Shown: piece by piece, positions 15,282 through 30,950 of the stretch
Layout: each line of letters starts with the position of its first letter
How positions within the stretch are numbered: position 1 is the first letter of the stretch
Source: Bacillus sp. ISL-51
GTDB taxonomy: Bacteria > Bacillota > Bacilli > Bacillales > Bacillaceae
Reading direction: 5' to 3'
DNA length: 64,000 nucleotides
Assembly: GCF_018613535.1 (NCBI RefSeq)
Contig: NZ_JAGGQB010000005.1
Location: 434,001 to 498,000 of the forward strand
Position numbers and translations under genes: made by a program
Notes under the pieces: model-generated
The model's input: only the letters and a program-made list of their open reading frames with translations
Told to the model about the DNA's origin: nothing
Database searches by the model: none

Positions 15282-15282
15282 A

Positions 15283-15313: not shown

Positions 15314-15328
15314 TTTCGAAAAAGTTCG

Positions 15329-18211
15329 CTAATCTAAAGCCAATGGGGTGGGAATTTCTTTATTAACTGATCTCAATAGTGCAAATAATTGTCCTGTTTT
15401 CCCTAACATCATCCCCAGTCCCGAATGATCATTTCTTATTCCATTTTGCCAGCCATGCATCAATAAGGTTTCTTTAAAATTGTTAACCCATATATTAATT
15501 GTATTCTCAATTTCTTGTTTGCGATTTTTAAAGAGAGACAATTCCTTAATAGCATGAAGTATATCTATATTGCCCATCGTGCCATGACACAATGAGTAAC
15601 CCTGCCGATGGGAATTGCCATTTTGCAATGTGTCATTTAATGACTCATTAATATACCCAACATGAATACGCCCATCTACATTTTCATGTATCCTGCTTCT
15701 CCCAAGAAGAATACCGCAAGACCCATGACACCACATTGGGGACGAATAATCCGACCCATTTTTTCTGTTATCTTTCCACTTATTTATTTTAGTATCAAAA
15801 AATCTATCTTCGTATTTGAGAGCTGATTCAATCAGTCTGAGTACTTCCTCGGATGGCTCAATATGTGCATAATATTCAGATAGTGCATAACAAATTCCAG
15901 TAATTCCGTGAGAAAACCCTGCTAAAATTATATTCTCATCCGCGTCAGATTTCCAATATGCTTCATTTCGGTTTTGAATCGCTCTTTTGCATATTTCCGT
16001 ACAAACTGCCCTTGCAGTATCTTTCACTATTTCAGTCCGATAATGCTTGCCGAGTTGAACCACAACCTTTAATATTCCCGCGAGTCCGCCGATAAAATCA
16101 GTATGTTTTATTTGGGAGGTTTCCTCACGAAGCTTCTCTAAGTATGCTTTACACACCCTGTTCACTTCATTTTCTGAATAAAGTCCGGTATCTCTCATTT
16201 TATTGACAAAATAGATATAAGAACTTGATCCGTAAAAAGCTGAAAAATTTGTTTTATAAATACTATGCTCATATATTTGATTAATGGAATTAACTATTTT
16301 ACGAAGAACTGGCTTGATTTTTTCATCATTATATATAAGATTATAAGCTGAAAAATACAGCCCTACTCCAGCTAAACCATCGTACAGTCCAAAGCTTAGC
16401 GGTCCTGCAGATAAAGTGCCATTGGGAGCCGAGACTATTGATACCCATTGAAGATCATTCTCTGATTCCATTGCTTGTTTTAAAATACAATCTGTTTCTA
16501 TTTGAATCAGTTCTTTAATTTGTATTTCATTTTTAAATTGCCTAGGTACAAAATCATCACTTTGATTAGTACAAATGATATCCAAATTAGCTGCTGTGGA
16601 GCTTAAGGCCATATTTATCAATCTCACTTGCTGGTACATGTCTTCTTCCGACATATTCGCTAAACGAGTTAAGACTTCTTGTTTAGCGCTTCTTTTCATA
16701 ATCCCTGTACCCACCACTTGTACTGAATTTGAATAAACCTGTTTTTCACTAATAAAAGTATTAAAATAGGGTATATCACCGATCATCATATCCTTGATCT
16801 CAAATGGGCTGATGGAATCAAATGCTTCATATTTTGTGTAGGCATCCTTAATAAAAGATAAAACTCTTCTCCTTTCTCCATAATCTTTTAAATACATAGG
16901 ATGGAGAAGAGTTTCAAGAAATGCAGCGTAAACATATGTAGGTCTGACAATAATTCTAATAGGGGCATTGCTAAAATTGCTTATGAGGTTCGGGATATAT
17001 AAATCTTTTTTCAAAATAATGTATATTCTTTCGAAACCTTCAATAAACTCTTTTTCAAATTCAAAGCATTCTGCTACTTTATTTTTATAAACAGGAAGGT
17101 TACTTCCCCTTTTGAAGAAATAATGTTTCTTTCTCATAGAAATTTTATCAGTTTTTATATGAAGCACTTCTTCTTTTTCACCTTTTTGATTTTCTGTATT
17201 TATCAAACCTCCTATATTTGTCAAGCCGTTATCTTCCGGAAAACTCATATAGTTGAAAAATGCAGATTTTAATATTGTTTTATTTACTTGCGCTGATGCC
17301 ATCAAATTAACATTTTCTTTGTTCTCTTCAGAAAAAACAAGGCTGCTTTGAAACAAAGTCTCAAGATCAACCAACACAGGTTTGTCACGACATGCAATTA
17401 TATTTTCAAAATGAAAATCTGATCCTTGAAAAGCATAAATAAAGCCTAAATGCATTCCAAATTGATAATAATAATTTCTTACCTGTTCAATATTATCGCA
17501 AGGTTCAGCCTGTACGTATTCTTGCCATCCATACTCACCTTGATCCAAAGATAAAGGAGTTTTTAAATTAGTTTGATAATGCTGATTGACATAATCAATG
17601 ACCTTTTCATAAAAAACATCAATTTTAAGTGAACGGGGTTTATAAACGAGTTTATCATTTTCAAATTCTATAATAACGACACTTTTACCGCCGTTATGAA
17701 CATCACCCGCATTCATTTCAATCTTTCTCATTTTTCCGAGCGAAAAATTGAATTTTTTTTGGATGTTTTTATAATCATTAACCCAATGTTTAATAATAGA
17801 TATAGTGAAGCGTATAAAATCAGAGGTGGATCTGGAGATTAAATCTTCCAATACAGGATAGTTATTTAATATTTCTTCAACAAATGCGGAATTTTTCAGC
17901 CTTTCTGAGAATAGATCATAATTTTTAGATTCATTTTTTTCATCAAACTCATCAAAAGTCTGATGAAACTCATGGATAAGTGTTTTCTCCGCCAAATGGT
18001 ATATTTTTTTCTTATAATTAATTAATATCGATTCAATAAGACACATTTTATCCAGACTTTCTGATTGTATTCTATCCATTTCTTTAACAAGACGAGTTTT
18101 ACAAATATTTATAAAATACTTTGCAAAACCTTCAAAATAGTCATCTTCTTTAAATATGTCTAATACAGAGTTTTTATAATAATGGTTATCTGATTTCTGT
18201 GTTTTGTTCAT
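15329..18211 (-). CDS. Class II lanthionine synthetase LanM (beta-side)
   Basis: A 960-residue LanM. The N-terminal dehydratase (DUF4135) has the kinase-like motifs GDVHNGGKSVVIIEFENDKL, VYKPRSL and FHFENIIACRDKPVLVDLET. It phosphorylates and eliminates Ser/Thr of the precursors. The C-terminal LanC-like cyclase has zinc ligands in MWCHGSCGILLG and YSLCHGTMGNID. It follows the three GG-leader precursors and a hairpin, so it most likely modifies the beta-type peptides. The start is taken at the ATG at 18211 (MNKTQKSDN); a GTG three codons upstream is also possible. It shares only motif-level similarity with the second LanM of the cluster. Confidence 0.94.
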   Translation of the reverse strand: MNKTQKSDNHYYKNSVLDIFKEDDYFEGFAKYFINICKTRLVKEMDRIQSESLDKMCLIESILINYKKKIYHLAEKTLIHEFHQTFDEFDEKNESKNYDLFSERLKNSAFVEEILNNYPVLEDLISRSTSDFIRFTISIIKHWVNDYKNIQKKFNFSLGKMRKIEMNAGDVHNGGKSVVIIEFENDKLVYKPRSLKIDVFYEKVIDYVNQHYQTNLKTPLSLDQGEYGWQEYVQAEPCDNIEQVRNYYYQFGMHLGFIYAFQGSDFHFENIIACRDKPVLVDLETLFQSSLVFSEENKENVNLMASAQVNKTILKSAFFNYMSFPEDNGLTNIGGLINTENQKGEKEEVLHIKTDKISMRKKHYFFKRGSNLPVYKNKVAECFEFEKEFIEGFERIYIILKKDLYIPNLISNFSNAPIRIIVRPTYVYAAFLETLLHPMYLKDYGERRRVLSFIKDAYTKYEAFDSISPFEIKDMMIGDIPYFNTFISEKQVYSNSVQVVGTGIMKRSAKQEVLTRLANMSEEDMYQQVRLINMALSSTAANLDIICTNQSDDFVPRQFKNEIQIKELIQIETDCILKQAMESENDLQWVSIVSAPNGTLSAGPLSFGLYDGLAGVGLYFSAYNLIYNDEKIKPVLRKIVNSINQIYEHSIYKTNFSAFYGSSSYIYFVNKMRDTGLYSENEVNRVCKAYLEKLREETSQIKHTDFIGGLAGILKVVVQLGKHYRTEIVKDTARAVCTEICKRAIQNRNEAYWKSDADENIILAGFSHGITGICYALSEYYAHIEPSEEVLRLIESALKYEDRFFDTKINKWKDNRKNGSDYSSPMWCHGSCGILLGRSRIHENVDGRIHVGYINESLNDTLQNGNSHRQGYSLCHGTMGNIDILHAIKELSLFKNRKQEIENTINIWVNNFKETLLMHGWQNGIRNDHSGLGMMLGKTGQLFALLRSVNKEIPTPLALD

Positions 18212-18259
18212 ATTAATCACATCCCATATTTATTTCTTGACTGCTTGAATAACAAAAAA

Positions 18260-18295
18260 GAAAAAGAATATGTACGCATATACATATTCTTTTTC
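18260..18295 (-). terminator. Attenuator hairpin between precursor genes and lanM
   Basis: On the minus strand, GAAAAAGAATATGTA pairs with TACATATTCTTTTTC around a 6-base loop, followed by TTTTTTG. Placed between the last precursor and lanM, it should lower synthetase expression relative to precursor, as in other lantibiotic operons. Confidence 0.75.
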
Positions 18296-18303
18296 GGATA
18301 TAT

Positions 18304-18480
18304 TTAGTCGTTACATGGGCTGACGATGGACGCACACTTTGTCGTCGGACAGCCTGCCAACGATATTGGAATTGTGATGGTTGTCGGAGTTATCGTCATC
18401 GGGGCTGCATCTGAACCCCCTGCAAGATCTTTTAATTCTTCTTCAGTCATTGGAGTCAGTGCTTGGAAATCTTTTTTCAT
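18304..18480 (-). CDS. Lanthipeptide precursor, beta type, copy 1
   Basis: A 58-residue precursor found on the minus strand. The leader MKKDFQALTPMTEEELKDLA ends in a double glycine (residues 21-22). The 36-residue core starts SDAAPM, is rich in Thr, and contains AGCPTTKCASIVSPCND with three cysteines. CPTTKC is the conserved C-terminal ring motif of beta peptides of two-component lantibiotics such as haloduracin and lichenicidin. The extra SIVSPCND end is unusual. From the proline five residues into the core onward it is identical to copy 2. Confidence 0.92.
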   Translation of the reverse strand: MKKDFQALTPMTEEELKDLAGGSDAAPMTITPTTITIPISLAGCPTTKCASIVSPCND

Positions 18481-18516
18481 TTTTAATTCCTCCTATAGTT
18501 TAATTTTTTAAAATTT

Positions 18517-18693
18517 TCAGTCGTTACATGGGCTGACGATAGACGCACATTTAGTTGTCGGACAGCCTGCTAAAGATATTGGAATTGTGATAGTTGTCGG
18601 TGTAATCGTCATTGGAGTTGCCTCCGATCCTCCCGCCAATTCCTTTAATTCTTCTTCAGTCATTTGTTCCAATGCTAAAAACTCTTTTTTCAT
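18517..18693 (-). CDS. Lanthipeptide precursor, beta type, copy 2
   Basis: A 58-residue paralogue of copy 1. The leader MKKEFLALEQMTEEELKELA and GG site differ at several positions, and the core begins SEATPM instead of SDAAPM. The remaining residues, including TTITIPISLAG and CPTTKCASIVSPCND, are identical. Many synonymous third-position differences separate the copies, so the core has been held constant by selection after duplication. It is preceded by GGAGGGATTTATA. It probably shares the synthetase and exporter with copy 1. Confidence 0.92.
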   Translation of the reverse strand: MKKEFLALEQMTEEELKELAGGSEATPMTITPTTITIPISLAGCPTTKCASIVSPCND

Positions 18694-18714
18694 TATAAAT
18701 CCCTCCGATTATTT

Positions 18715-18870
18715 TTATATTTGCTTTTGCGGACATGCGCAGCCTACTGTGACAGTTGCACACAGATGTGTGAATGGAATTGTTGTTATCGATATTAAGT
18801 TTTGCCCTCCAACAAGGTCTTTCAATTCTTGTTCCGAAGTTTCATGCAATGCGCTAAAGTTTTTTTTCAT
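18715..18870 (-). CDS. Third lanthipeptide precursor, divergent core
   Basis: A 51-residue precursor. The leader MKKNFSALHETSEQELKDLV ends in GG (residues 21-22) and resembles the beta leaders. The 29-residue core starts QNLISITTIPF and ends HLCATVTVGCACPQKQI, with three cysteines and seven Ser/Thr. It lacks CPTTKC; CATV resembles the first ring of haloduracin-type beta peptides, but no known peptide matches in my memory. A good ribosome site (AAAGGAGGTGAAAT) precedes it, right after lanT. Whether it is active, a third component or a decayed copy is unknown. Confidence 0.85.
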   Translation of the reverse strand: MKKNFSALHETSEQELKDLVGGQNLISITTIPFTHLCATVTVGCACPQKQI

Positions 18871-18888
18871 ATTTCACCTCCTTTCAAG

Positions 18889-21036
18889 CTAATTAGTCTG
18901 CTGCAGCCGAGATTCATATTTGCTCTTTATTGCCTTTAAGTTTCCATTTTCAATCTCGTAGATAGATTCGGAGAATTCGAGCCATTCCGTTCTATGGGTA
19001 ATAGAAATTACAGTTATATCCTTATTGTAGATGTTATTTAATATATTTAATTCCGTATCCTTATCCAAATTGCTTGTTCCTTCATCTATAAAGAGAATTT
19101 GCGGATTTTTCGCTAACACTCTGGCTATTGAGATCCTCTGCCGCTGCCCGCCCGATAAGGTAATACCATTTTCTCCAATTATCGTATGGTAACCCATGGG
19201 CATTTTTATAATATCCTCATGAATACATGCTTCTTTTGCAGCTTGCACAACTTCTTCCATTGTTATTTTTTCACTAAAATATTTTATATTATTTATAATA
19301 GTGTCATTAAACAGATTGACATCTTGAACAATGTAACCTAATGTTTCTCTCAGCTTAACCATATTTACGTCCTCTATTTTGAATTCACCATAGCAAATTT
19401 CTCCCGCAGTTTTTTGATAAAGGCCGGCAATGATTTTAATCAATGTAGACTTTCCGCTTCCGGTTTTTCCGATTAATGTGATTTTTTCTCGCGGGCGGAT
19501 CATTAAATTCACATTATTCAGAATACAGTCAGTTCCATTGTAGCTGAAGTCAATATTTTTCAAGCTGATATTATGAACAGCCGGGTTAAATCGTTCACTG
19601 CTTTTATCATTTACTTCCTCATCTTTTTCATCCAGCACGGCCTCAACTCGGTCTACCATTTCTTCGACTAATTTAATAGATTCGAGACTGCCAATTATAG
19701 ATCCAAGCGGTGACATAAACCGTCCGGCAATGTTAGAAAAAGCAATTACTGCTCCAAGTGTTAAACCTATGGATGACGCTGACCAGGTACCTACAATTAA
19801 AATAAGTAACGGCAAAGATAGATTGATTGCATTGGAGACCGCACCCAGTAAGGACGAATAATTCATTCTTTTTGAGAAATAATCTAATTGATGATCAAAA
19901 TTATAATTTAATTGGCTTTCAATATTCTTTGTTTCTCCTATTGTTTTTATAAATGTCATGGATCTTAAAATTTCGATTAGCTGACTCTGAAAGTTTGATT
20001 GACTGTTTACTTCCTGTTTTGTAAACATTTCAATTTTCGGAAGCAAAAATTTAGTACTCAGCACCTGTATCATCGCTCCCGATAAAACTATAAAAGATAA
20101 AACCGGAGAATAAACAAACATTACAATGAAAAATACAAAGATAAGACTGATATCCAATATTAAAGTCGACGCAAGCCTGGAAATGACTTCGCGAATTACA
20201 GCAATGTTATGAATTCTTGTCGAAATATCCCCGGCGGTATTCGCCTCAAAAAACTTTAAGGGAAGAGAAAATATTTTACTGATTATTTTATCAGTCATAC
20301 TTTTATTAATTTTTAATTGCAGTTTGATAATGAATTTCATTCTGATTAAAGACAGACTAAAGAATAATACGATTGAAACAATAACAAACGTTAAAAGCAT
20401 AGGTATAGGGAGACTTTTCTCATCTCCGCTAATAAATGAATCAATGATATATTGAGTCAAAAAAGGAGTCATTAAGTTTAATGCTTGAAAAATAAAGGTA
20501 AAGATTATAATAAACCCCAATAATTTTTTATCTTTCAGAAGATATTTTCCGATCTTTTTAAATGAAGACACGTCTTTTAATGATGCAGCAATTTTATCTT
20601 TTCTCTCAAATTCGTTCTTTCTAGTTAACATAATAGAAATACCATTATAAAACGTCTTGAACTCTTCTAATGTGATTGTCAGTCGGCCAGTCGAAGGGTC
20701 TATAATTTTTACGGTATCCGTGCCAAATGATTCGACAACTACAAAATGATTATGATTCCAATGAACAATTAGCGGATGGATTTTGTTTATCTCTTTAAGC
20801 TGATTTAAGTTGTCTGTACGAAAAGCTTTAAAATCATAATCGAATGTTTCGGAAATCTTTTTCATTACAATTAAATCTGTGCCGTCTCTTCCGATAATTT
20901 CTTTATTTAATTTCAATTTGTTAGGATTGATTTTTATTCCTTCAGCCCTGCTCAAAACCATAGCTAAACAAGTAATACCGCAATCAAATTGATTTCTTTG
21001 AAGAATAACCGGAAGTTTTTTTTTACTAATTTTCAT
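18889..21036 (-). CDS. Lantibiotic exporter/leader peptidase LanT
   Basis: A 715-residue bifunctional ABC transporter. The N-terminal C39 cysteine peptidase (residues about 5-130) has the catalytic Cys in RNQFDCGITCLAMVL, His in VHWNHNHFVVVE and Asp in KIIDPSTGRL. It cuts precursors after the double glycine. A six-helix membrane domain follows (about 165-440). The ATPase has Walker A LIGKTGSGKSTLIKI, signature LSGGQRQRISIARVLA and Walker B ILFIDEGTSNLD. It is the only exporter in the cluster, so it should handle all four precursors. It follows the second LanM by nine bases. Confidence 0.95.
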   Translation of the reverse strand: MKISKKKLPVILQRNQFDCGITCLAMVLSRAEGIKINPNKLKLNKEIIGRDGTDLIVMKKISETFDYDFKAFRTDNLNQLKEINKIHPLIVHWNHNHFVVVESFGTDTVKIIDPSTGRLTITLEEFKTFYNGISIMLTRKNEFERKDKIAASLKDVSSFKKIGKYLLKDKKLLGFIIIFTFIFQALNLMTPFLTQYIIDSFISGDEKSLPIPMLLTFVIVSIVLFFSLSLIRMKFIIKLQLKINKSMTDKIISKIFSLPLKFFEANTAGDISTRIHNIAVIREVISRLASTLILDISLIFVFFIVMFVYSPVLSFIVLSGAMIQVLSTKFLLPKIEMFTKQEVNSQSNFQSQLIEILRSMTFIKTIGETKNIESQLNYNFDHQLDYFSKRMNYSSLLGAVSNAINLSLPLLILIVGTWSASSIGLTLGAVIAFSNIAGRFMSPLGSIIGSLESIKLVEEMVDRVEAVLDEKDEEVNDKSSERFNPAVHNISLKNIDFSYNGTDCILNNVNLMIRPREKITLIGKTGSGKSTLIKIIAGLYQKTAGEICYGEFKIEDVNMVKLRETLGYIVQDVNLFNDTIINNIKYFSEKITMEEVVQAAKEACIHEDIIKMPMGYHTIIGENGITLSGGQRQRISIARVLAKNPQILFIDEGTSNLDKDTELNILNNIYNKDITVISITHRTEWLEFSESIYEIENGNLKAIKSKYESRLQQTN

Positions 21037-21045
21037 AAAAATCTC

Positions 21046-24000
21046 CTAATAAGTTTTTTTCATACAACCTATTTCAAGATTAAGAATATTCGGTAATCCG
21101 GTATCTGCTGCATAGAGCATCCCATACAAGATCCCTGCTAAACCCAGCATTAAGTTTGGTGTTTCCACATCTCTTCCCACTCCGCATTGATAGAAACCTA
21201 TATTTTTGTCTTGTACACTCTCTGCGATTAAATTTTTTCCAATCGTTACAAATTGACTTTCACCAGTCTTTTTTCCATATTCGATCAATATTAACGCGTT
21301 CCCCATGTCTCCATGACATAGGCTTTGCTCTCGGCCAAAACCGTCATAAAAAATATTGGAAACGGCTTGGTTCATATCATTTTTGGCCTCTTCAGCAATG
21401 TCGGCGTGTTTTGAATCTTTCAATTCTAATCTGCTTAATAGAATTCCAGGGGAACCATGACACCAAGCAGATGCAGCTTCTTCATTAACCGGTTTTCTCA
21501 GGTCAATCCAGTTACCGTGTACTATTTTGGAATTTTCAAAAGCAAGTCCTTTTCGAATATACTTACTTATATCTTGATGTTCTGAATGTTTCTGGAGCAA
21601 TTGAAGGGCGAATATCATTCCAGCATTTCCATGAGAAAAGCCCGTTAACGGCTTATTTGCAATACCTTCCCAAGTGATAAAATCCTGATCAAGAAAGATA
21701 GCTTGTTTCATTAAGAATGAACCGCATTGTTCAGCCAACGATAAAAAGAATGTATCATTCTCTATTTCAAACGAACGTATCAATACAGTAAGAGCCCCTG
21801 CTGCTCCACCGATTATATCCAATTCTTTATCATATGGAAGCAATTGCGGAATAAGCTGAGCTATTTGTTTTGCATCCTGTTTATATTTTTCGCGTTTAGT
21901 AAACATATAGAAATTCATTAATGCATATACAATCGAAGACACTCCGGAAAAAGCCCCTACAGACATATTGCTGCCTTCCTCCGGTTTTATCTCAATATGA
22001 ATAAAACGAGAGACGACATCATTCATAATTTTTTCTGCCATGTCCAGATATTTTTGTTTTTTCGTGACGCGCCATAAAGCAAGATAGGTGAAGGCCATCC
22101 CGGAAAGTCCGTCATAAAAGGTATCACCCATAACAGACAAATTCCATTGAATTTCATCAACCCCAATAGGAGTAGCGTTTAGCCAAGAGTATGAACTTCC
22201 TTTATCTGTATGTGCTTTGTATGATTGATTATAAATATAAGCTGCCAATTCTTCTGCTTTTTCTATTAAGATACTCTCTTGGTCACTATTGAAAATATTT
22301 AAATATCTGCTGGGTTCTTTTGTTATAAATTCTTTCAAAACTATTTGTCGGTCATCCTCCGAAGCAAGCATTGACAGTTCGATAACATTAAGCTGAAACT
22401 CTAAATCGTCTTTTGTTAAATTTGAAATTCTTTCTTTTACACTTTGAGCCGGTGTTTCTGCAAAGTAATTCTCAATTTTTTTATTTTTTGAGCTCAGTAA
22501 ATCTTTTTCATTGAGCTTTACTTTGAAATAAGGGATATCATTATTGATTAAATCATTGAACTCATATTTAACAAGGGATTGATATTCATCTTCTCGCTTG
22601 GGCCTCTCCCATATTTTAGATAAGAAAATTTCTCTATCAATAGAGTTATGTAAAAATCTTGGGTGGAAACTTAATTCTAATAAAGCAGAATATTTTATTG
22701 TCGGTTTCGAAATAAACCGAACATATATCTTGTTTTCATTCTTTTCTATTATGCGAATTAATTCCGAAGCATGTTTTAGTATTGTCATATATATTTTCGA
22801 AAAACCTTGTTTCAGTTCTTTGACATAATCTTTTGCGTATACAAATTCATTGTCAAGCATAGGGTGATTATTAGCTGAATCAATTTCGACATAGTCTCGT
22901 TTGACAGACATTTCTGCTGTCTTTAAATTTTTAAGCTGAGGAACTTTAATGATCGACTTTGCTTTCCCTTTCCGCCCTATACCGCTAATATCAGCTTTGC
23001 CAGCAAAGAAAAAAGGAAGCAGGCCTAATGCTCTGACAGATTCATGAAGCTGCGTCTCAGCTTTTTCATAAGCGTCCATCGCATTCGTTTTTTTCTGGTA
23101 TGCGGGATGAAATAAGGACTCTAAATCAATGAGAACTGGATAACTTCCGTTGGCAATAAGATTTTCCGAATGAAAATCGACGGCTTTCAATGCATATAAC
23201 AAACCGATTTGGGCTCCTGTGCGCCGATAAAAGCTTTGAATATCTTTTAAACAATTGCATGCTTTAAAAGATATAAATTCAGTCCATCCATATCCGTCTC
23301 TGCTAAGAACATTTGGAGTGCTCAATTTTATATCATGATCTCTATTTCTCTCATTCAGAAATTCAATTATCTTTTTATATAACAGATCAATTTCTAAGCT
23401 TCTCGGCTTATAAATAAGCTTGCCTTCGTTTAATATAATTTTAGTTACCTTTCTCCCATCAGAATGGGAATCACCCATTCCTAATTCAATGTCCCTTATT
23501 TTGACTTGTTCTGAAAAACCAAATGAAGAGAGTAGTTCAGGCCTGTCTTTTTCAAAACGGGAGATAAATTCCGCCAAGAATTTTTTAAATTTTCTCAATT
23601 CATTACCGATCACTCTCAATAAAACTGGATATTGTTGAAAAAAGCTTTTAAGGTACTCGGGATTGCCCAAAAGAGTTTTATTATAATAATCATATTTTTC
23701 TTTAGGGGTCTCCCCTGATAAAAGACCTTTTTCCCGATTCATATTCATATCCAATACAAGTGTTCTATAGGATACTTTTAAAATGGTTTTTTCTAATTGA
23801 TTTGATATACTATTATGAAGAAATGCTGGTTGTTCTAGCAGATAATCATAAGAAGAAAATTTTGATTTTTGAAGAAGCTCATCGAAGTAAGAAGACACTT
23901 TTAAGGCAAAAATATGAAACATGATTTCTTCATTTACGTTCTCTTTCTTAAAAGTTTGGTGAGCAATCCCTGTTTTTAAGTTTTCGAAAACATGGACTGT

Positions 24001-24213
24001 AAAAGCGGATTTATGTAGTGGGGTTTGATATAAGTTTTTCACTTTATCAATTGACTGAATGGATAACACATTATGAATGCTTTCCTGGGCCATTTGAATA
24101 TCATTCTTATATATCAATTCCAAGTTTCGATCAAGCAGATTTTCATTTCCATTATAGTGAGAGGCGGCAGCTTTTTTTTCTTTACTTAATAGAATATTAG
24201 TTATCGAATTCAT
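21046..24213 (-). CDS. Class II lanthionine synthetase LanM (alpha-side)
   Basis: A 1055-residue LanM. Dehydratase motifs are GMGDSHSDGRKVTKIILNEG, LIYKPRSLEID and VDFHSENLIANGSYPVLIDL. The LanC-like cyclase domain has LTGFSHGNAGMIFAL and the zinc-ligand segments SAWCHGSPGILLSRL and EQSLCHGDMGNALIL. The start is the ATG at 24213 (MNSITNILLSKEKKAA), with AAAGGAGATGAATATCAA upstream; an in-frame ATG at 24267 lies beyond the attenuator hairpin and is rejected. It is directly downstream of the alpha-type precursor and probably modifies it. Confidence 0.94.
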   Translation of the reverse strand: MNSITNILLSKEKKAAASHYNGNENLLDRNLELIYKNDIQMAQESIHNVLSIQSIDKVKNLYQTPLHKSAFTVHVFENLKTGIAHQTFKKENVNEEIMFHIFALKVSSYFDELLQKSKFSSYDYLLEQPAFLHNSISNQLEKTILKVSYRTLVLDMNMNREKGLLSGETPKEKYDYYNKTLLGNPEYLKSFFQQYPVLLRVIGNELRKFKKFLAEFISRFEKDRPELLSSFGFSEQVKIRDIELGMGDSHSDGRKVTKIILNEGKLIYKPRSLEIDLLYKKIIEFLNERNRDHDIKLSTPNVLSRDGYGWTEFISFKACNCLKDIQSFYRRTGAQIGLLYALKAVDFHSENLIANGSYPVLIDLESLFHPAYQKKTNAMDAYEKAETQLHESVRALGLLPFFFAGKADISGIGRKGKAKSIIKVPQLKNLKTAEMSVKRDYVEIDSANNHPMLDNEFVYAKDYVKELKQGFSKIYMTILKHASELIRIIEKNENKIYVRFISKPTIKYSALLELSFHPRFLHNSIDREIFLSKIWERPKREDEYQSLVKYEFNDLINNDIPYFKVKLNEKDLLSSKNKKIENYFAETPAQSVKERISNLTKDDLEFQLNVIELSMLASEDDRQIVLKEFITKEPSRYLNIFNSDQESILIEKAEELAAYIYNQSYKAHTDKGSSYSWLNATPIGVDEIQWNLSVMGDTFYDGLSGMAFTYLALWRVTKKQKYLDMAEKIMNDVVSRFIHIEIKPEEGSNMSVGAFSGVSSIVYALMNFYMFTKREKYKQDAKQIAQLIPQLLPYDKELDIIGGAAGALTVLIRSFEIENDTFFLSLAEQCGSFLMKQAIFLDQDFITWEGIANKPLTGFSHGNAGMIFALQLLQKHSEHQDISKYIRKGLAFENSKIVHGNWIDLRKPVNEEAASAWCHGSPGILLSRLELKDSKHADIAEEAKNDMNQAVSNIFYDGFGREQSLCHGDMGNALILIEYGKKTGESQFVTIGKNLIAESVQDKNIGFYQCGVGRDVETPNLMLGLAGILYGMLYAADTGLPNILNLEIGCMKKTY

Positions 24214-24229
24214 TTGATATTCATCTCCT

Positions 24230-24260
24230 TTAAAAAAAGAGGGAGACAACTGGATCTCCC
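24230..24260 (-). terminator. Attenuator between alpha precursor and lanM
   Basis: On the minus strand, GGGAGATCCAGTTGTCTCCC forms a 6-bp stem, followed by TCTTTTTTT and then the lanM ribosome site. Partial readthrough would set the precursor-to-enzyme ratio. Confidence 0.75.
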
Positions 24261-24297
24261 AGGGCATTGGAAATCTTTTGTTACTTTTGCGTTTGTT

Positions 24298-24480: not shown

Positions 24481-24513
24481 TAGTATTCCCCCTTAATGTT
24501 TTTTGAAATATAT

Positions 24514-24527
24514 TGGATTTAAATCCA
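24514..24527. promoter_or_regulatory. Perfect palindrome upstream of alpha precursor
   Basis: TGGATTTAAATCCA is a 14-bp perfect palindrome set in a longer near-symmetric ATATAT flank, 34 bases upstream of the precursor start. It is a candidate operator overlapping the promoter or 5' leader. Confidence 0.5.
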
Positions 24528-24585
24528 TATATTTCTATAATCCTATGATAAACATCTTTTCCCAGTAAGGCACCGAAAAGTCATA

Positions 24586-24620
24586 TTCGGAAAAGCGCTT
24601 TTTTTTTGCGCCTTTCCGAA
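24586..24620. promoter_or_regulatory. Long inverted repeat with ComA-box-like arm
   Basis: TTCGGAAAAGCGC and GCGCCTTTCCGAA form arms around nine T residues. The right arm read on the plus strand (24606-24621) is TTGCGC-CTTT-CCGAAG, related to the ComA box TTGCGG-N4-CCGCAA (9 of 12 fixed positions). It lies upstream of the alpha precursor promoter and downstream of the ComA-like regulator gene, so it may be that regulator's binding site; a plain hairpin is the alternative. Confidence 0.45.
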
Positions 24621-24665
24621 GTGATATTATTTATTGTGAGGCATCATTTATTTATCCGGTACAAA

Positions 24666-24701
24666 GAAAAATCGGGATTAACTATTCTGTTAATCCCGAT
24701 T
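24666..24701 (-). terminator. Terminator after the ComA-like regulator
   Basis: On the minus strand, AATCGGGATTAAC pairs perfectly (13 bp) with GTTAATCCCGATT around a 6-base loop and runs into TTTTCTTTG. It separates the regulatory genes from the biosynthetic operon. Confidence 0.88.
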
Positions 24702-24704
24702 CAT

Positions 24705-25370
24705 TTACTCATATATAGTTTTCAAAGAGATTAAAGAATATCGATTTGCTTTAATCAGTGCCTCTGTTCTAGATTTCACACCAAGCTTGTTGTACACACC
24801 CGTAAGAATGTATTCAACTGCTCTCTGACTGATTAACAGCTTAGCCGATAATTCCCGATTTGTCATTCCTTCGGCAACTCCTGCTAAGATATCTTGTTCT
24901 CTTTCATTTAATGTAATATCTCTTATTCTATCTTCAAGCTTATCAATATTGAACATATTTGCTTCTGTCCTTCTTAATTGCTTAAAAAGATGAGTAGGAA
25001 TAATGGTATCTCCTTCAATGACACATTCAATTACTTTTATCATTTGCTCTTCCGTTGATGACTTACTTATGAAACCGGAAATACCGACTTCCACTAAAAG
25101 GTTGAAGTGTGCAGGGATATCAAATCCAGTATAAATTATAATTTTTTGATCGGGACTTTCTCTAAGAATCATTTTTGACAATTCCATTCCATTTAATTCC
25201 GGCATATATAGATCAAGTAAAATTAAGTCATACTCGTAATGCTTAAGATGATTAAGTACTTCTTTACTGTGAGACAATATTGTTACTTCCATTCTATCGC
25301 TTTTTTCTAGAATGGCTTTTGTCCCTTGAGCAACACCAATATGATCATCAATTAATAGAATCTTTATCAT
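24705..25370 (-). CDS. ComA-like LuxR/NarL-family response regulator
   Basis: A 221-residue response regulator. The receiver domain has the acidic pocket LLIDDH, the phospho-acceptor Asp in LILLDLYMPELNGMELSK, the switch Thr in IIIYTGFDI and Lys in ISKSS. The C-terminal LuxR-type helix-turn-helix contains TLNEREQDILAGVAEGMTNR, then ISQRAVEYILTGVYNKLGVK. Overall and in the DNA-recognition helix (RAVEY.LT...NKL.V.SRTEA) it resembles ComA rather than LanR proteins of OmpR type. It lies twelve bases from the sensor kinase gene and probably controls the precursor operon. Confidence 0.9.
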   Translation of the reverse strand: MIKILLIDDHIGVAQGTKAILEKSDRMEVTILSHSKEVLNHLKHYEYDLILLDLYMPELNGMELSKMILRESPDQKIIIYTGFDIPAHFNLLVEVGISGFISKSSTEEQMIKVIECVIEGDTIIPTHLFKQLRRTEANMFNIDKLEDRIRDITLNEREQDILAGVAEGMTNRELSAKLLISQRAVEYILTGVYNKLGVKSRTEALIKANRYSLISLKTIYE

Positions 25371-25381
25371 AGCAGCGCTCC

Positions 25382-26632
25382 CTATTCATTTTTCGTACTT
25401 ATTTCAAACCTTACCAGCAATCCTTCATTTTCAACTGATGCTATATTATGAATACCATTCATACAGTTTATACGTTCTTTGATCCCTGTTAACCCGAAGC
25501 TGTTTGTTTTTGTATTCACTGTATTCCAATTAATGCCGATTCCGTTATCCTCGTAAACAAACATAAGACTTGTTTCTTTTTGAATCATTGTCAAAACAAT
25601 ATAATTGGCTTTTGAGTGTTTTACAGCATTGATAAGCAGTTCTTGAACAATCCGGTAAATGTTTATTGTTATATCTTCTGTAAAAATAGAATCGTCTTTT
25701 ACATCTAAAAGGAATTCAATATCAAGCTGATGGTTACTTTTATATTTATCAATTAAAACTTGAATGCTGCTAAGAAGTCCCATCTCCATTAAAAAAGGGG
25801 GTCTTAAATCAAAGCATTTTTCTCTTATATATTGGATATTATCCAACAAAATTTCTCTTATGTAATAAATATCCTTATATTCCCCAACATGATACTCTAA
25901 TTCTCTGCATATAAATATTAGCTCTTGAATGATAGAGTCATGAATATCCTGTGCAAGTTTGGTTCTCTCTATCTCTGAAATTGAAAATAAAACCTTAGAA
26001 AGTACAGCCGACTTACATTTATATTGATCGCTTATGATGATTTCATCAATTTTTTGCCGGATTAATAATTTGTTCTGAAGTGCAGATGCTGTGCAAAATG
26101 CCAGCATTCTCAGCCAATCTGCTTCATTTTCACGGATCTTTATAGGATAACCTCTATCTGATAAAAGAATATAAACAAATGTATCATACTTCTCCCCAAT
26201 AAAGAGAATTGATCCACTAACGGTTTCACTGATTTCTCCTATCTTAAGATTTGTAATGTTTTTGTTAGGGATCTGAATATGTTCTTCTTTAAATTCTAAT
26301 GTTTTTTTATCATAGTGTATAAGAGAAATCTGCTCTCCTGAGAAGACACTCTGTATTTCATTGGTCAGCTCTTTTATTAATTGATCTGCATCTGATTCCT
26401 CTTGACAAGATTCTGAAAAACGGATCAAGCTGCGGAGGTATGTCTTATTCTTGTCACCACAAAGAGAGCATAAAAAACTACTGCCAAATATACTTAGAAC
26501 AAAAAATAGACTATACTGTTTAAACTGTAATTGGCCGCCTGTTATAAGTAAAAGCATAAATAACAATAATAAGGAGAAAACAAAGGCCCTTGCATACTGC
26601 TCTGCATTAAGCTTCACCCAATAATCTTTCAT
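25382..26632 (-). CDS. ComP-like sensor histidine kinase
   Basis: A 416-residue HisKA_3-type kinase. Only two membrane segments are evident (residues about 14-33 and 41-58), far fewer than in ComP, which has a multi-span sensor. A cytosolic GAF-like region follows (about 80-200). The phospho-acceptor His is in IERTKLAQDIHDSIIQELIF. The ATP-binding domain has RIVQELLINAVKHSKA and VYEDNGIGINW. The short sensor suggests a signal at the membrane or inside the cell, perhaps the mature lantibiotic or its intermediates. It is paired with the ComA-like regulator. Confidence 0.9.
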   Translation of the reverse strand: MKDYWVKLNAEQYARAFVFSLLLLFMLLLITGGQLQFKQYSLFFVLSIFGSSFLCSLCGDKNKTYLRSLIRFSESCQEESDADQLIKELTNEIQSVFSGEQISLIHYDKKTLEFKEEHIQIPNKNITNLKIGEISETVSGSILFIGEKYDTFVYILLSDRGYPIKIRENEADWLRMLAFCTASALQNKLLIRQKIDEIIISDQYKCKSAVLSKVLFSISEIERTKLAQDIHDSIIQELIFICRELEYHVGEYKDIYYIREILLDNIQYIREKCFDLRPPFLMEMGLLSSIQVLIDKYKSNHQLDIEFLLDVKDDSIFTEDITINIYRIVQELLINAVKHSKANYIVLTMIQKETSLMFVYEDNGIGINWNTVNTKTNSFGLTGIKERINCMNGIHNIASVENEGLLVRFEISTKNE

Positions 26633-26699
26633 TCGTCTCCAAACCCCTTACTAAAGAAAATAAGGGAACTCTCCCTTTGAATTCCCCTAAAACGGAATG

Positions 26700-26891
26700 T
26701 TACTTTACACTTATTAAAATATAAACAGCGAACGCAACAATGTATACCAGAAATGATCCCGTCATAAATTTTACGGGTTTTCTTGAGAAGTTTAATACTC
26801 CTCTTAATCCGTCATTCAAAATCATTCCGAAAAATGTAACCAGCGTAACTCCTAAAGCCAGCATTGAAATCACAAAAATAATTTGCTCCAT
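26700..26891 (-). CDS. Small two-helix membrane protein, possible immunity protein
   Basis: A 63-residue protein with two hydrophobic spans (IIFVISMLALGVTLVTFFGM and TGSFLVYIVAFAVYILI) joined by a basic loop with RGVLNFSRKPVK. It has a good ribosome site (AATGGAGGATGATTTTAG) and follows the ABC permease gene by 17 bases, so it belongs to the same transcript. In lantibiotic clusters this position is often held by LanG or a LanI/LanH-like accessory immunity protein. I do not recognise the family; the immunity role is inferred from context. Confidence 0.75.
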   Translation of the reverse strand: MEQIIFVISMLALGVTLVTFFGMILNDGLRGVLNFSRKPVKFMTGSFLVYIVAFAVYILISVK

Positions 26892-26908
26892 CTAAAATCA
26901 TCCTCCAT

Positions 26909-27640
26909 TTACATTCTGTATTTTTTTGAATATACATATAAGCCTGATAAGGAAACCAAAACATACAGCCCCATTATCAGTAATCCCCAGATTAAAAAAA
27001 TTGAATTTGAATATCCCATATCACTTTCTAAAATTTGAATACTGAAACGATAAATAAAAGAAAAAGGAAAGACAATTGAGATATCACTTGCTAACAGCAT
27101 TGTCATTACTAGAAATGAAGCTACACCTGTTATCATCACAACCACTATATTTTTACTTATGAATGCAATTAAAGCGGCAATCGGAATGGTAAGCAGACTC
27201 ATAGTAGTAGAAGTAAAGGATGTCGCTATTAACCTTAATAAGTCGCTTGCCGTGAGGTCTTCTCCAAAAAAGAAAAACAAGGTTGTTAAGTGAATAAAGT
27301 GATTAATTGCCGAAATGAAAAACAAAAACAGAAAAGCTGCAGCTAGCTTTGATAATATCAATTTGAATTTATGATAAGGATAAGACATCCAGTTCAACAT
27401 TGTCTTGTTTTTAAATTCTAAATAAAAATAAAAACCTGAAAATATAAAAATAACAGTCGGAAAAAGGACGGAATACTGATTAAAAACAAACATATAAAAT
27501 TTGTACCAATCTGTTTTTTCATTCATAGTCAGAAGACCGATTCCATTTATGAGAAATGGCAAAAAACTTAGAAAGAAAATAACATAAATTGATTTTAGCC
27601 TTTTCAGTTTCATAAATTCGTTACGCACTAACAGACTCAT
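26909..27640 (-). CDS. Lantibiotic immunity ABC transporter permease (LanE/G-like)
   Basis: A 243-residue permease with six hydrophobic segments of the ABC-2 type. The N-terminal cytosolic start MSLLVRNEFMKLKRLKSIYV is typical, as is the large first loop. The gene start overlaps the end of the ATPase gene by 20 bases with AAGGAGGAAGGTC directly upstream. Such permeases with a BcrA-like ATPase expel the lantibiotic from the membrane and give self-protection. There is one full permease here plus a tiny membrane protein, instead of the usual LanE and LanG pair. Confidence 0.88.
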   Translation of the reverse strand: MSLLVRNEFMKLKRLKSIYVIFFLSFLPFLINGIGLLTMNEKTDWYKFYMFVFNQYSVLFPTVIFIFSGFYFYLEFKNKTMLNWMSYPYHKFKLILSKLAAAFLFLFFISAINHFIHLTTLFFFFGEDLTASDLLRLIATSFTSTTMSLLTIPIAALIAFISKNIVVVMITGVASFLVMTMLLASDISIVFPFSFIYRFSIQILESDMGYSNSIFLIWGLLIMGLYVLVSLSGLYVYSKKYRM

Positions 27641-28556
27641 GACCTTCCTCCTTTGCCAGCAGTTTTAAATAAAGATCTTCCAAAGATAGCTTAAATCCGT
27701 CAATAGATTCCTTGTTAACTCCATAAGAATTTAAATTCTCTTTCATTTCCGACGGATGCATTATTGAAATAAATTCAAATTGCTGTTTATTTCTTGAAAT
27801 AATATGATCGGCAAATTCCTCAATATCCGCCCAATCAATACCTGCTTCCGCTGGTATTTTGTATAAATAAAGATGTTGTTTATTTTTCATAAAGGCTGAC
27901 TCAAAAATAATTTGTCCCTTATTCATAATAAGCAATTCATCAGCCATGAGATTAATCTCACTTAAGAGATGACTTGAGATAACGACTGTGGTTCCATTTT
28001 TCATTACTTCTTGTATCAGCATTTCCCTCACTTCTTTAATACCATAAGGATCTAAACCGTTCGTCGGTTCATCCAGCAAAAGCAATGCGGGAGCGTGCGC
28101 AATTGCTCTGGCGATTCCCAGCCTCTGTTTCATTCCTAATGAAGTTTGTGAAAACAGCTTATCTTTGTGTTCATAAAGTCCAACCGCTCCTAAAACCTCA
28201 TTTATTTCTTCTTCCGAAGCTGATCTTTTTAAATAGTTAAGATGCAGCTTGATATTCTCAAAAAGAGTCAAATTTTCATAAAAACCGGGAAATTCGATAA
28301 TGCTTCCGATAGACTGAATCACATCATGATTTGGATTGCGATATAGGTTGTTCCCCTCAAAAATCACTTCTCCTGAAGTTGGAGGAAAAATCCCTAAAAG
28401 AACTTTAAGCAATGTCGTTTTCCCTGCACCGTTCGGACCTAACAAACCGTATATTTTCCCTTTTTCCAGTGTTAAATTTATATCATGTAAAATTTCTTTC
28501 TTTTTTATAGAAACATTGATACCTTTGGATATTAAAGCTGGATCAGCCTTCTTCAC
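27621..28556 (-). CDS. Lantibiotic immunity ABC transporter ATPase (LanF-like)
   Basis: A 311-residue ATPase of the BcrA/LanF class. Walker A is LLGPNGAGKTTLLKVLLGIF, the signature region is TSLGMKQRLGIARAIA, and Walker B is ALLLLDEPTNGLDPYG. Its Q-loop holds IIEFPGFYENLTLFENIKLH, where the Glu is characteristic of LanF-type proteins. The start is a GTG at 28556 after AAAGGATGATGATAA. Together with the permease it should form the immunity exporter. A direct-repeat element upstream suggests control by the OmpR-type regulator encoded next to it. Confidence 0.92.
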   Translation of the reverse strand: MKKADPALISKGINVSIKKKEILHDINLTLEKGKIYGLLGPNGAGKTTLLKVLLGIFPPTSGEVIFEGNNLYRNPNHDVIQSIGSIIEFPGFYENLTLFENIKLHLNYLKRSASEEEINEVLGAVGLYEHKDKLFSQTSLGMKQRLGIARAIAHAPALLLLDEPTNGLDPYGIKEVREMLIQEVMKNGTTVVISSHLLSEINLMADELLIMNKGQIIFESAFMKNKQHLYLYKIPAEAGIDWADIEEFADHIISRNKQQFEFISIMHPSEMKENLNSYGVNKESIDGFKLSLEDLYLKLLAKEEGHESVSA

Positions 28557-28583
28557 TTATCATCATCCTTTCCATCTTGTTCT

Positions 28584-28633
28584 GTTTATAATATAAACTT
28601 ACAAGGTTAAAAAGAAGATATAATCAAGGTTAA
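28584..28633 (-). promoter_or_regulatory. Promoter with direct repeats for immunity operon
   Basis: Two identical CAAGGTTAA repeats (28602-28610 and 28625-28633, plus strand; TTAACCTTG on the coding strand) are spaced 23 bp apart, about two helical turns. A -10-like palindrome GTTTATAATATAAAC (28584-28598) lies next to them. This is the layout expected for an OmpR/VanR-type regulator binding upstream of an activated promoter. Confidence 0.65.
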
Positions 28634-28662
28634 TTTAAGTTTAAATTTCTCAACATAAAAAT

Positions 28663-28690
28663 ACGTGAAACCGCTATGGCTTCACGTTTC
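28663..28690 (-). terminator. Terminator overlapping the end of the second kinase gene
   Basis: On the minus strand, CGTGAAGCC pairs with GGTTTCACG around a short loop and runs into TATTTTTATG. It overlaps the last codons of the kinase gene. Confidence 0.7.
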
Positions 28691-30034
28691 TTCACTGCTG
28701 TTTTGGTAAATAATAAAAACCGTTCCGTTTTGATTACTTTTTATTTTATGTTCCAGTTTCATTTGTTTGAGCATCATATTAATGATAGATAATCCAATTC
28801 CGGCGCCTTTTCTTTCAGATTTATAATCCATTCCCGGGCCCATATCCTCAATTATGATAACGGGTTTGTTTTCAATAAATTTTGTCTGTACTGAAACGTA
28901 TTTTCCTGAATTAGCATGGCGCAAAACATTTTGAAAAATGTTATCAAGAATTCTTTTTAGCCAAGTCTCGTCTATTTCCCATACGATGTTTTCCTTTAGA
29001 TTAATATCTATTGTAAAGTGCTCTTTCTCAAAAATCGGATACCAAGCTGTTAACGAAGAACGTATAATCTTTAATATGTCACAACTCTTTTTATGAAGCG
29101 GCAATTTACCTGCAGCAAGAAGAGAAAATGATGACAAATTGTCAATCAGTTCGCCCATAAAAGTTATTTTATCATTTATGATGCCTAGTGAATGCTTTCC
29201 ATTTTCACTGCTTATTTCATTCTTTAATGAAAATGTATGCCCTCTTATAACCGTAAGAGGTGTCCTTAAATCATGGGATAAATCAGCAATCAAGTTTTTT
29301 CGTATTTCAGCTTCTTCCCGCTCTTTTTGTCTGCTGTTCTTCAATTCCTCAACCATTTGATTGAATGAATATTCCACTTGACCCAGTTCATCGTACTGTT
29401 TAACTGTTACAAATTCTGGTATTCCGTCATTATCTTGTTTTTTCATATGATTCCCCAGAGAAATTAACCTTTTTTGTATTTTCGCAAAAAACATCCATGA
29501 ATTAATCACAAAAAGTGAACAGACAAAAATCAAGGCGATAAACCATATATAGGAATACTTGGCTCTCATAACTTCCCATTGAGATCCTATAATTGAGCGG
29601 GGAGTTTCTAAAAATGCATACCCGCTGTCTTCACTCCCATTTAAATAAGCACTCAGTAATAAATATTTCTTTTGGTTTTGTTCCATTAATTTGATCAATT
29701 CGCTTACGTGAATAATCTCACCTTTTTTGGCGAACCGATCTGAGGTTGAAAAAATCACCTTTCCCTTATCATTTATCCAAATGATATCAGAGTGTTTATA
29801 TTGCTTCATATGCGGGAATGCGGCTGTAATTTCTCGATTAGACTTTCCTGAAAAATCATCTATATCGGACTTCCAATCACTTTCCAATTTATTTGGTTCA
29901 TAATGTACTTGACCCTGGTGATCAATAATGTATGTTAATGTGACATAATATAGAAAATTAACGCCTAAAAAGGCTATCGGAAAAAATAAAATTGAGGCAA
30001 TGATATTAAGAAGGTACTTTGTCGATAATCTCAT
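28682..30034 (-). CDS. VanS-like membrane sensor histidine kinase
   Basis: A 450-residue kinase. Two membrane spans (about residues 8-33 and 163-186) bracket an extracytoplasmic sensor of about 130 residues. A HAMP segment follows. The phospho-His is in LIADLSHDLRTPLTVIRGH, and the ATPase motifs are DNIFQNVLRHA, IIEDMGPGMD and GAGIGLSI. Mersacidin clusters carry a comparable K2/R2 pair that controls immunity genes. It is translationally coupled to its regulator (4-base overlap). The C-terminal codons overlap a terminator. Confidence 0.9.
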   Translation of the reverse strand: MRLSTKYLLNIIASILFFPIAFLGVNFLYYVTLTYIIDHQGQVHYEPNKLESDWKSDIDDFSGKSNREITAAFPHMKQYKHSDIIWINDKGKVIFSTSDRFAKKGEIIHVSELIKLMEQNQKKYLLLSAYLNGSEDSGYAFLETPRSIIGSQWEVMRAKYSYIWFIALIFVCSLFVINSWMFFAKIQKRLISLGNHMKKQDNDGIPEFVTVKQYDELGQVEYSFNQMVEELKNSRQKEREEAEIRKNLIADLSHDLRTPLTVIRGHTFSLKNEISSENGKHSLGIINDKITFMGELIDNLSSFSLLAAGKLPLHKKSCDILKIIRSSLTAWYPIFEKEHFTIDINLKENIVWEIDETWLKRILDNIFQNVLRHANSGKYVSVQTKFIENKPVIIIEDMGPGMDYKSERKGAGIGLSIINMMLKQMKLEHKIKSNQNGTVFIIYQNSSEET

Positions 30035-30702
30035 TGTTTAATCCTATATCCTATCCCTCTGATTGTTTCAAGAATCTCTGGCTCATTTGGGTTTATCTCG
30101 ATTTTTTGCCGTAAATGCCGGATATGTACCATTAACGTCTTATCCCCTTCGATATAAGTCTGTTCCCAAATATTTTCGTAAATTTGTTCCTTTGTTAATA
30201 TTTGATTGGGATGTCTAAGCAAAAGCAAAAAAATCCTTAACTGCTTGTCAGTTAAAAATATTTCCTCATTGCTTTGATTATTTAAAATCCTTTTTTCTTT
30301 CAAGTAAATACTTAAGTGTTTTAGCTTCAACTCATGAATAGCAGTCTTATCAAACCTTCTTAACAATACTTCAATTCGTGCGACCAGTTCATCGGGATGA
30401 AATGGCTTTGTCACATAATCATCCGCAAACCCTAAGCCTTTCAGTTTATCTTCTAAACCTGTTCTGGCTGTTAAAAGCAAAATAGGGATCTGCGGATGAG
30501 TTTTTTTCATCCTTTGACCTATTGTAAATCCGTCTAAACCAGGCATCATAATATCAAGTACAATCAGGTCTGCCTTTTCTATATATTTTTCATAATGATA
30601 GGAAGAAGTGAGCCACTTAATCATATAACCCCGTTCTTCTAAGTCATCCTTTACAAATTGTCCAATTTCTTGGTCATCTTCAATATATAAAATGTTATTC
30701 AT
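30031..30702 (-). CDS. OmpR/VanR-like response regulator
   Basis: A 223-residue regulator. The receiver has IEDDQE, the phospho-acceptor Asp in LIVLDIMMPGLDGFTIG, Thr in LLLTARTG and Lys in TKPFHPDELVARIEVLL. The C-terminal winged helix ends KTLMVHIRHLRQKI, then RGIGYRIKQ. It is the first gene of a two-gene operon with its kinase. It is the likely binder of the TTAACCTTG direct repeats in front of the immunity transporter genes. It lies at the right edge of the inserted cluster. Confidence 0.92.
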   Translation of the reverse strand: MNNILYIEDDQEIGQFVKDDLEERGYMIKWLTSSYHYEKYIEKADLIVLDIMMPGLDGFTIGQRMKKTHPQIPILLLTARTGLEDKLKGLGFADDYVTKPFHPDELVARIEVLLRRFDKTAIHELKLKHLSIYLKEKRILNNQSNEEIFLTDKQLRIFLLLLRHPNQILTKEQIYENIWEQTYIEGDKTLMVHIRHLRQKIEINPNEPEILETIRGIGYRIKQ

Positions 30703-30947: not shown

Positions 30948-30950
30948 CCC

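Follow-up and report, generated by a model that had tools for sequence, protein, structure and literature searches.

A predicted two-component lantibiotic island in Bacillus sp. ISL-51, orthologous to the amyA/amyB/amyC cluster of strain WS-8, with a candidate further precursor

Introduction

Two-component lantibiotics of the haloduracin and lichenicidin type consist of an alpha and a beta peptide with one LanM synthetase each, the alpha peptide carrying a CTLTxEC motif and the beta peptide a CPT motif; mersacidin is made from a single precursor by a single LanM. This study concerns a lantibiotic gene cluster at positions 15329-30702, all genes on the minus strand, of a 64,000-nucleotide stretch of DNA from Bacillus sp. 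ISL-51 (contig NZ_JAGGQB010000005.1, positions 434,001 to 498,000), which is referred to as a whole as the window.

In two-component lantibiotics the alpha peptide binds lipid II and recruits the beta peptide, and a pore results (summarised in PMC10715183). For PMC10715183, PMC11897483, PMC9728402 and PMC13172255, statements made here refer to the portions of the articles that were covered. Several related systems have been described in the Bacillus group. For example, B. amyloliquefaciens WS-8 was reported in 2019 to have three LanA, two LanM, one LanT, one LanI and five regulatory genes, of which the precursor, synthetase and transport genes were expressed (PMC9728402). In 2026 the same cluster was described as having three precursors, amyA, amyB and amyC, with two LanMs and one LanT; expression in E. 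coli gave characteristic peaks only for amyA with LanM A and amyC with LanM B, and dehydration and predicted rings were reported for these peptides (PMC13172255). The amyC product was assigned m/z 1087.53 and seven dehydrations, at a default precursor tolerance of 6000 ppm (PMC13172255). Similarly, velezensicidin of B. velezensis CE2 is a two-component system with two lanM genes and one lanT, although its announcement prints no peptide sequence (PMC6346160); it may be related to the cluster in the window. The amyloliquecidin cluster contains lanP and two lanFEG sets (PMC5637498).

Gene content and precursor peptides of the island

The cluster is most probably a complete class II two-component lantibiotic island in which LanM-alpha acts on the alpha peptide and LanM-beta on the beta peptides, and an ortholog of the WS-8 cluster, a reading to which we assign a probability of about 0.92. 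A preliminary description of this DNA had listed four precursor genes, two LanM genes, one C39 LanT, an immunity ATP-binding cassette (ABC) pair with a small membrane protein and two two-component systems, all on a single strand, and open reading frames (ORFs) together with Pfam and NCBIfam profile matches, judged against the cut-off of each model, place every one of them where it had been described (Table 1). The order of transcription is response regulator RR2, sensor kinase HK2, ABC ATPase, ABC-2 permease, 63-residue membrane protein, sensor kinase HK1, response regulator RR1, alpha precursor, LanM-alpha, LanT, the fourth precursor P3, beta copy 2, beta copy 1 and LanM-beta. The cluster is also, as had been claimed, richer in A+T than its flanks: its G+C content (GC) is 0.30-0.37, compared with mostly 0.44-0.49 outside, falling to 0.40 at about 12.5-14.5 kb. 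None of the 14 cluster proteins matched a mobile-element protein in the Pfam and NCBIfam scans, and the 63-residue protein had no match in either. The count of four precursors stands; more precisely, there are one alpha, a nearly identical pair of betas and P3, a peptide unlike the others. B. velezensis can be set aside as the source species, as the flanking DNA is 82-84% identical to it.

The two-LanM alpha/beta reading proposed at the outset is carried by families and motifs in the sequence. The alpha precursor contains CTLTWEC, the mersacidin-type lipid II motif, and exceeds the cut-off of the plantaricin C family; its core, with the start set to give 29 residues, is QRGISQGNDGKLCTLTWECGLCPTHTCFC. 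The beta precursors contain GCPTTKC, a CPTxxC motif, and exceed the cut-off of NF038161. The core of beta copy 1 is AAPMTITPTTITIPISLAGCPTTKCASIVSPCND, its start being set to give 34 residues, and that of copy 2 lies one residue away, the two genes being identical at 146/177 nucleotides. TIGR03897 is matched twice and PF03412 once, giving the LanM pair and the C39 LanT of a two-component class II system. In these features, a LanM for each of alpha and beta, CTLTxEC and the CPT motif, the cluster resembles the haloduracin/lichenicidin type. It differs in that the alpha peptide has three Cys after CTLTWEC (tail CPTHTCFC), whereas the alpha peptide of a genome of the same family, G050, has one. 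At this G050 locus (L053, 2670-9836), an alpha/beta cluster of the classical kind with two LanMs, one Cys follows CTLTKEC. A mersacidin-type single peptide was rejected, since the window has four precursors and two LanMs.

Table 1. Features of the lantibiotic island, in coordinates of the window.
Feature	Position	Strand	Evidence
LanM-beta, 963 aa	15329..18220	-	TIGR03897, 683 bits
Hairpin and T-run between beta and lanM-beta, likely attenuator	18260..18295	-	16 pairs; fold z -5.7
Beta precursor copy 1, 58 aa	18304..18480	-	NF038161 LchA2/BrtA2 family, 39.5 bits vs cut-off 26
Beta precursor copy 2, 58 aa	18517..18693	-	NF038161, 42 bits vs cut-off 26
Fourth precursor P3, 51 aa	18715..18870	-	ORF; DMB05 ortholog; family matches below cut-off
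LanT, C39 peptidase-ABC exporter	18889..21036	-	Peptidase_C39 (PF03412), ABC_membrane, ABC_tran
LanM-alpha, probable 1055-aa form	21046..24213 (longest ORF from 24267)	-	TIGR03897, 851 bits
Terminator-like hairpin between alpha and lanM-alpha, possible attenuator	24241..24260	-	Scan match; similar sequence in DMB05
Alpha precursor, 60 aa	24298..24480	-	Plantaricin C family (NF000539), 35.1 bits vs cut-off 29
Terminator-like hairpin between RR1 and alpha	24669..24702	-	14 pairs; z -3.55 for 24600-24704
RR1, LuxR/NarL-type response regulator	24705..25370	-	Response_reg and GerE
HK1, HisKA_3-type sensor kinase	25382..26632	-	HATPase_c above cut-off; HisKA_3 slightly below
63-aa membrane protein, candidate immunity peptide	26700..26891	-	Recurs in other-genus clusters and deletion alleles
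ABC-2 permease, LanE-like	26909..27640	-	PF12730
ABC ATPase, LanF-like	27621..28556	-	ABC_tran; top NCBIfam match TIGR03740 (lantibiotic-protection ATPase), 232 bits, below cut-off 309.75
HK2, HisKA-type sensor kinase	28682..30034	-	HisKA, HATPase_c
RR2, OmpR-type response regulator	30031..30702	-	Trans_reg_C, Response_reg
Terminator-like repeat, yjnA end of island	15282..15314	.	Aligns to uxaA-end copy
Terminator-like repeat, uxaA end of island	30918..30952	.	Aligns to yjnA-end copy

Relation to the WS-8 cluster and to amyloliquecidin

The WS-8 cluster was compared through its published description and through B. velezensis DMB05, where the same site is occupied by an orthologous cluster of about 90% DNA identity. 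Like the window, WS-8 has two LanMs and a single LanT for one alpha and two betas. For amyA, all ten named Ser/Thr/Cys positions fit the alpha core of the window, and for amyC all twelve fit its beta cores. Furthermore, the published amyB/amyC identity of 85.88% corresponds to 152/177, which is exactly the value for the two beta genes of DMB05, and the published amyC m/z is that expected of the DMB05 beta core after the loss of eight waters (1087.537), whereas a loss of seven would give 1093.54. Because core lengths and Ser/Thr/Cys positions fit, and because the DMB05 allele reproduces both the published identity and the amyC m/z, the cluster in the window is most probably the ortholog of amyA/amyB/amyC in another species and a sister allele of it. 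Its own beta genes give 146/177, and its beta cores reach the amyC m/z only with oxidation or sodium, differences to be expected of a sister allele. As a reading of the published mass, amyC would carry eight dehydrations and not the seven stated; among the possible fits, the plain one with eight makes the smallest number of assumptions, and it is in keeping with the 152/177 match.

Several observations weigh against this picture. The beta cores of the window miss the amyC m/z by plain dehydration (copy 1 at 1088.21 with seven and 1082.21 with eight). The value 1087.53 can be approached within 0.05 in other ways, namely by copy 1 with eight dehydrations and oxidation (1087.537), by copy 2 with ten and sodium (1087.529), and by the second isotope of the DMB05 beta core if nine dehydrations are combined with oxidation (1087.534). 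For amyA, the m/z of 1035.45 can be matched only under an additional assumption, either pyroglutamate in the DMB05 alpha with five dehydrations or a sodium adduct of the window alpha, in each case as the first isotope peak. Moreover, amyB gave no noteworthy peak with either LanM (PMC13172255), and the covered portions of PMC13172255 and PMC9728402 contain no antibacterial assay of amyA or amyC and no synergy test.

The window and DMB05 alleles differ by F28 for W28 in alpha, by I6 for V6 in both betas and by A2 for T2 in beta copy 1. Both beta copies of the window thus have I at core position 6 and both of DMB05 have V, yet silent sites differ between the copies, a pattern that could be due either to parallel change or to partial gene conversion.

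The preliminary description had supposed that the cluster might already be known, and had offered amyloliquecidin as a candidate identity. The first supposition is borne out for the alpha and the duplicated beta, which match amyA, amyB and amyC, and fails for P3, which does not appear in the covered portions of the WS-8 accounts. The second fails. Amyloliquecidin (GF610/AD2) belongs to the same species group and is likewise two-component, with two LanMs, one alpha and one beta, but the published GF610 beta precursor (PMC11897483, table 4) differs in leader and core from both betas of the window, and the lanP gene and two lanFEG sets described for it (PMC5637498) are not seen there. In addition, the authors of the WS-8 work keep amyloliquecidin apart from their own system (PMC13172255). 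That the cluster is amyloliquecidin and fully described already can practically be set aside. Searches of article text, figures and supplements apart, gave no printed match to the core strings of alpha, beta or P3.

A family of alpha peptides across genera

The alpha precursor belongs to a family that extends beyond Bacillus. Of 397 genomes of the order, six had a match at E<=0.01. Besides the own genome these are G050, whose alpha is of the classical type, and four close relatives with 63-74% identity. A profile search of 398 genomes of the class, a sample that overlaps in part with the first, gave five at E<=0.001, comprising the own genome, a further close relative (G706) and the weaker matches G790, G602 and G050 (E 7e-7 to 1e-5), of which the locus was examined for G050 only. 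In all five close relatives, from four other genera, the alpha gene, LanM-alpha, LanT, RR1, the 63-residue protein, the permease, the ATPase, HK2 and RR2 stand in the order of the window. An HK1 ortholog was detected in 2/5, and beta and LanM-beta lie on the same contig in 4/5. In the fifth, G373, the contig stops inside a beta gene, and a second contig carries a piece of beta together with LanM-beta. Such a break (end of L050, start of L075) would be expected if there were more than one near-identical beta copy.

When the alpha cores of the five relatives and DMB05 are aligned, S5, T14, T16, T24 and T26 are constant, as are C13, C19, C22, C27 and C29, and the tail reads CPTHTC[WF]C. This arrangement makes five dehydrations and up to five rings possible, compared with three in the top model of the WS-8 authors (PMC13172255). 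Alphas ending in CPTHTCFGC or CPTHTCWC are also found on staphylococcal plasmids, those of S. hsinchuensis H164 and S. aureus pC871_1 (a short piece only). The S. hsinchuensis cluster resembles that of the window in having a related beta too, and differs in its gene order and in an alpha that lacks one of the five Cys.

Closer to home, LanM-alpha has no near relative in the samples searched. Some LanM was present at E<=1e-20 in 13/44 genomes of the genus including the own, with the best outside the own genome 34% identical; in the family, 5/80 genomes including the own matched at E<=1e-130, the next best being 35% identical. A contig scan with LanM-alpha gave no match. Its closest solved relative is LicM2 (6st5).

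The fourth precursor

P3 combines a beta-like leader with a distinct core, QNLISITTIPFTHLCATVTVGCACPQKQI, that lacks the CPTTKC motif. It gave only two family matches, both below cut-off and not used: TIGR04149 with 20.6 bits (cut-off 25, residues 9-47) and PF04604 with 17.7 bits (cut-off 21.7). An ortholog 78% identical is present in DMB05, where it is not among the genes in the table of the record, a table incomplete by design. Fourth precursors are not mentioned in the WS-8 accounts either, as far as the covered portions of PMC13172255 and PMC9728402 extend.

P3 could be a decaying duplicate of a beta gene that makes no product, and the chance of this falls not far short of even. Across the whole gene, 9/20 changes between window and DMB05 are at third positions, which is no significant excess (p=0.19), and omega is 0.42 vs 0.04-0.06 for the other precursors; the core has an omega of 2.4 that is not significantly above 1 (p=0.41). 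In DMB05, extra bases part the Shine-Dalgarno sequence from the ATG, with an overlapping ATG in between, and no P3-like ORF was found in the 5/5 other-genus clusters, with the contig break of G373 lying nearby. However, purifying selection acts on the leader (omega 0.05, p=0.0008), which differs in omega from the core (Fisher p=0.019). Within the core, 9/29 aligned residues have changed, and each of the nine positions that are Ser, Thr or Cys in the window is unaltered (p=0.017); DMB05 has one additional Ser. The frame is intact in both species, and the start context in the window is strong, with GGAGG six bases ahead of the ATG.

It is unlikely that P3 is instead a secreted signal peptide for HK1 or HK2 and not an antibiotic component. 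An accessory, quickly changing core in a cluster with two sensor kinases would suit such a role, but three conserved Cys and six conserved Ser/Thr fit a lanthipeptide, and the other-genus clusters have HK2 (5/5) and HK1 (2/5), yet no P3 was detected in them. Wider searches added no P3: among 397 genomes of the order, a P3 profile gave seven matches at E<=0.01 including the own, of which those in G373 and G405, two genomes that also have the alpha, fall on beta genes and the other four are short, each crossing a stop codon, and a contig scan with the P3 alignment gave no match.

P3 is considered with moderate confidence to be a lanthipeptide. It would represent a third kind, so far only in two Bacillus clusters, those of the window and DMB05. 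It would most likely be handled by LanM-beta, because its leader is of the beta type.

Insertion site and history of the island

The island lies between a gene with a TauE domain and a gene with an altronate dehydratase domain, named yjnA and uxaA in the preliminary description, which places them side by side in B. subtilis. Among 44 genomes of the genus including the own, yjnA was found in 16, uxaA in 36 and both in 13. In 11/13 the two are 39-46 bases apart, counted between matched frames; the gap is 15.7 kb in the own genome and about 3 kb in G002, where uxaA was only partly matched. The proposed insertion between these genes is therefore supported by the junctions compared, whereas the further claim that it is a clean one needs refinement, as the site is filled, partly deleted or empty in relatives. 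The terminator-like repeats at the two ends of the island align with a score reached by 0/1000 base shuffles. At the empty site of G040 there is one such stretch, compared with one at each end of the filled site, the terminator reading having been made by eye. The flanks of G040 are 98.7-99.2% identical to those of B. velezensis DMB05, which is filled, and one species therefore holds both allele types.

Two deletion alleles retain a part of the cluster. In G002 (L034, 7293-9931) RR2, HK2 and the 63-residue gene are kept, and in G026 (L035, near 5222-5464) the 63-residue gene alone; in both this gene has an intact 63-residue frame and a Shine-Dalgarno-like stretch. The same protein occurs in 5/5 other-genus clusters. 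The DMB05 record used for comparison, NZ_CP083716.1 (pDMB05-1), has 806 kb, is labelled a plasmid and contains ftsZ, ileS, murG, pyr genes, motAB and an altronate dehydratase gene. It looks like a piece of chromosome labelled as a plasmid.

Synonymous divergence (dS) was compared between the window, together with 20 stretches of its own contig, and about 246 kb of the 806-kb DMB05 record; the cluster was represented by the 9/14 proteins of >=120 residues. The nine cluster genes have a dS of 0.29-0.42 between window and DMB05, compared with a median of 0.77 for 59 other orthologs, 10/59 of which are below 0.44. Composition confounds this low value, because none of the 59 is equally A+T-rich (GC at third codon positions below 0.36 in 0/59). 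The dS test alone thus leaves it possible that the island has descended vertically from the ancestor of the group and that its low synonymous divergence reflects A+T-rich composition only, and the same site is occupied in several species. Vertical descent is nonetheless improbable. In 6/6 flanking genes, DMB05 and G002 are closer to each other (dS 0.11-0.31) than to the window, which is separated from G002 by 0.59-0.90 in four and by 0.35 in the other two. For HK2, by contrast, dS is 0.42 for DMB05-G002 and thus larger than for window-DMB05 (0.34) and window-G002 (0.33). The values for RR2 are 0.38, 0.42 and 0.24, respectively. The short 63-residue gene gives 0.28 for DMB05-G002, with distances of 0.27 and 0.22 from the window to the two. 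Because the HK2 and RR2 distances conflict with those of the six flanking genes, the island appears to have a history partly separate from that of the chromosome, most simply explained by interspecies exchange, on the basis of two full genes and one short one.

Synthetase start and intergenic hairpins

Next to the ATG at 24267 stands a terminator-like hairpin, and in B. velezensis the annotation of the ortholog begins at a later ATG; LanM-alpha therefore probably starts at 24213. Counts of promoter-like sites (53 vs 69.3 in shuffles) and terminator-like sites (8 vs 8.1) across the region are uninformative, since neither exceeds shuffled sequence, and hairpins were therefore judged singly. The one between beta and lanM-beta has a fold z of -5.7 in the window and -4.5 in DMB05. 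The one between alpha and lanM-alpha has only -0.9 (window) and -0.2 (DMB05) and is not clearly stabler than shuffles, which weighs against attenuation at this site. A hairpin 3' of the beta genes, and perhaps another 3' of alpha, would be likely to keep precursor mRNA above synthetase mRNA.

Proposed mechanism and perspectives

For the window itself, all functions are assigned from sequence; for the peptides of WS-8, other authors have demonstrated enzyme-peptide pairing and dehydration in E. coli (PMC13172255). In the proposed mechanism, LanM-alpha would dehydrate and cyclise the alpha peptide and LanM-beta the beta peptides, after which LanT would cut the leaders and export the products. 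The alpha peptide, which carries CTLTWEC, could then bind lipid II, and pores could form once beta has been recruited to it. Self-protection would be given by the ABC pair and the 63-residue membrane protein, a candidate immunity peptide, driven by HK2 and RR2, whereas RR1, with HK1, may control the biosynthetic genes.

The alpha/beta pair has already been published as its sister version in WS-8 (2026). Within the literature covered, the new elements are P3, the extension of the family to other genera, the alleles of the island in which a 63-residue gene is retained, and the interpretation of the amyC mass by eight dehydrations; of these, P3, the island alleles and the multi-genus family are not in the covered portions of the published account. 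A wider proposal can be made tentatively, with the odds leaning against it. P3 would be a third, unreported lanthipeptide with a fixed leader and a core that varies while its ring-forming residues stay constant, and in Bacillus the system would then be a three-component weapon, one component of which is tuned from species to species; its alpha would belong to a multi-genus family with five Ser/Thr and five Cys in which five rings are possible; and the island would be exchanged at one site, leaving behind a 63-residue immunity gene.

To summarise, the published but isolated amyA/amyC pair can be assigned to a conserved family that spans several genera of bacilli. The comparison offers a corrected dehydration count, a further precursor and a directly testable candidate for a 63-residue immunity peptide. 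Furthermore, the filled, partly deleted and empty alleles form a natural set for studying the gain and loss of lantibiotic immunity.

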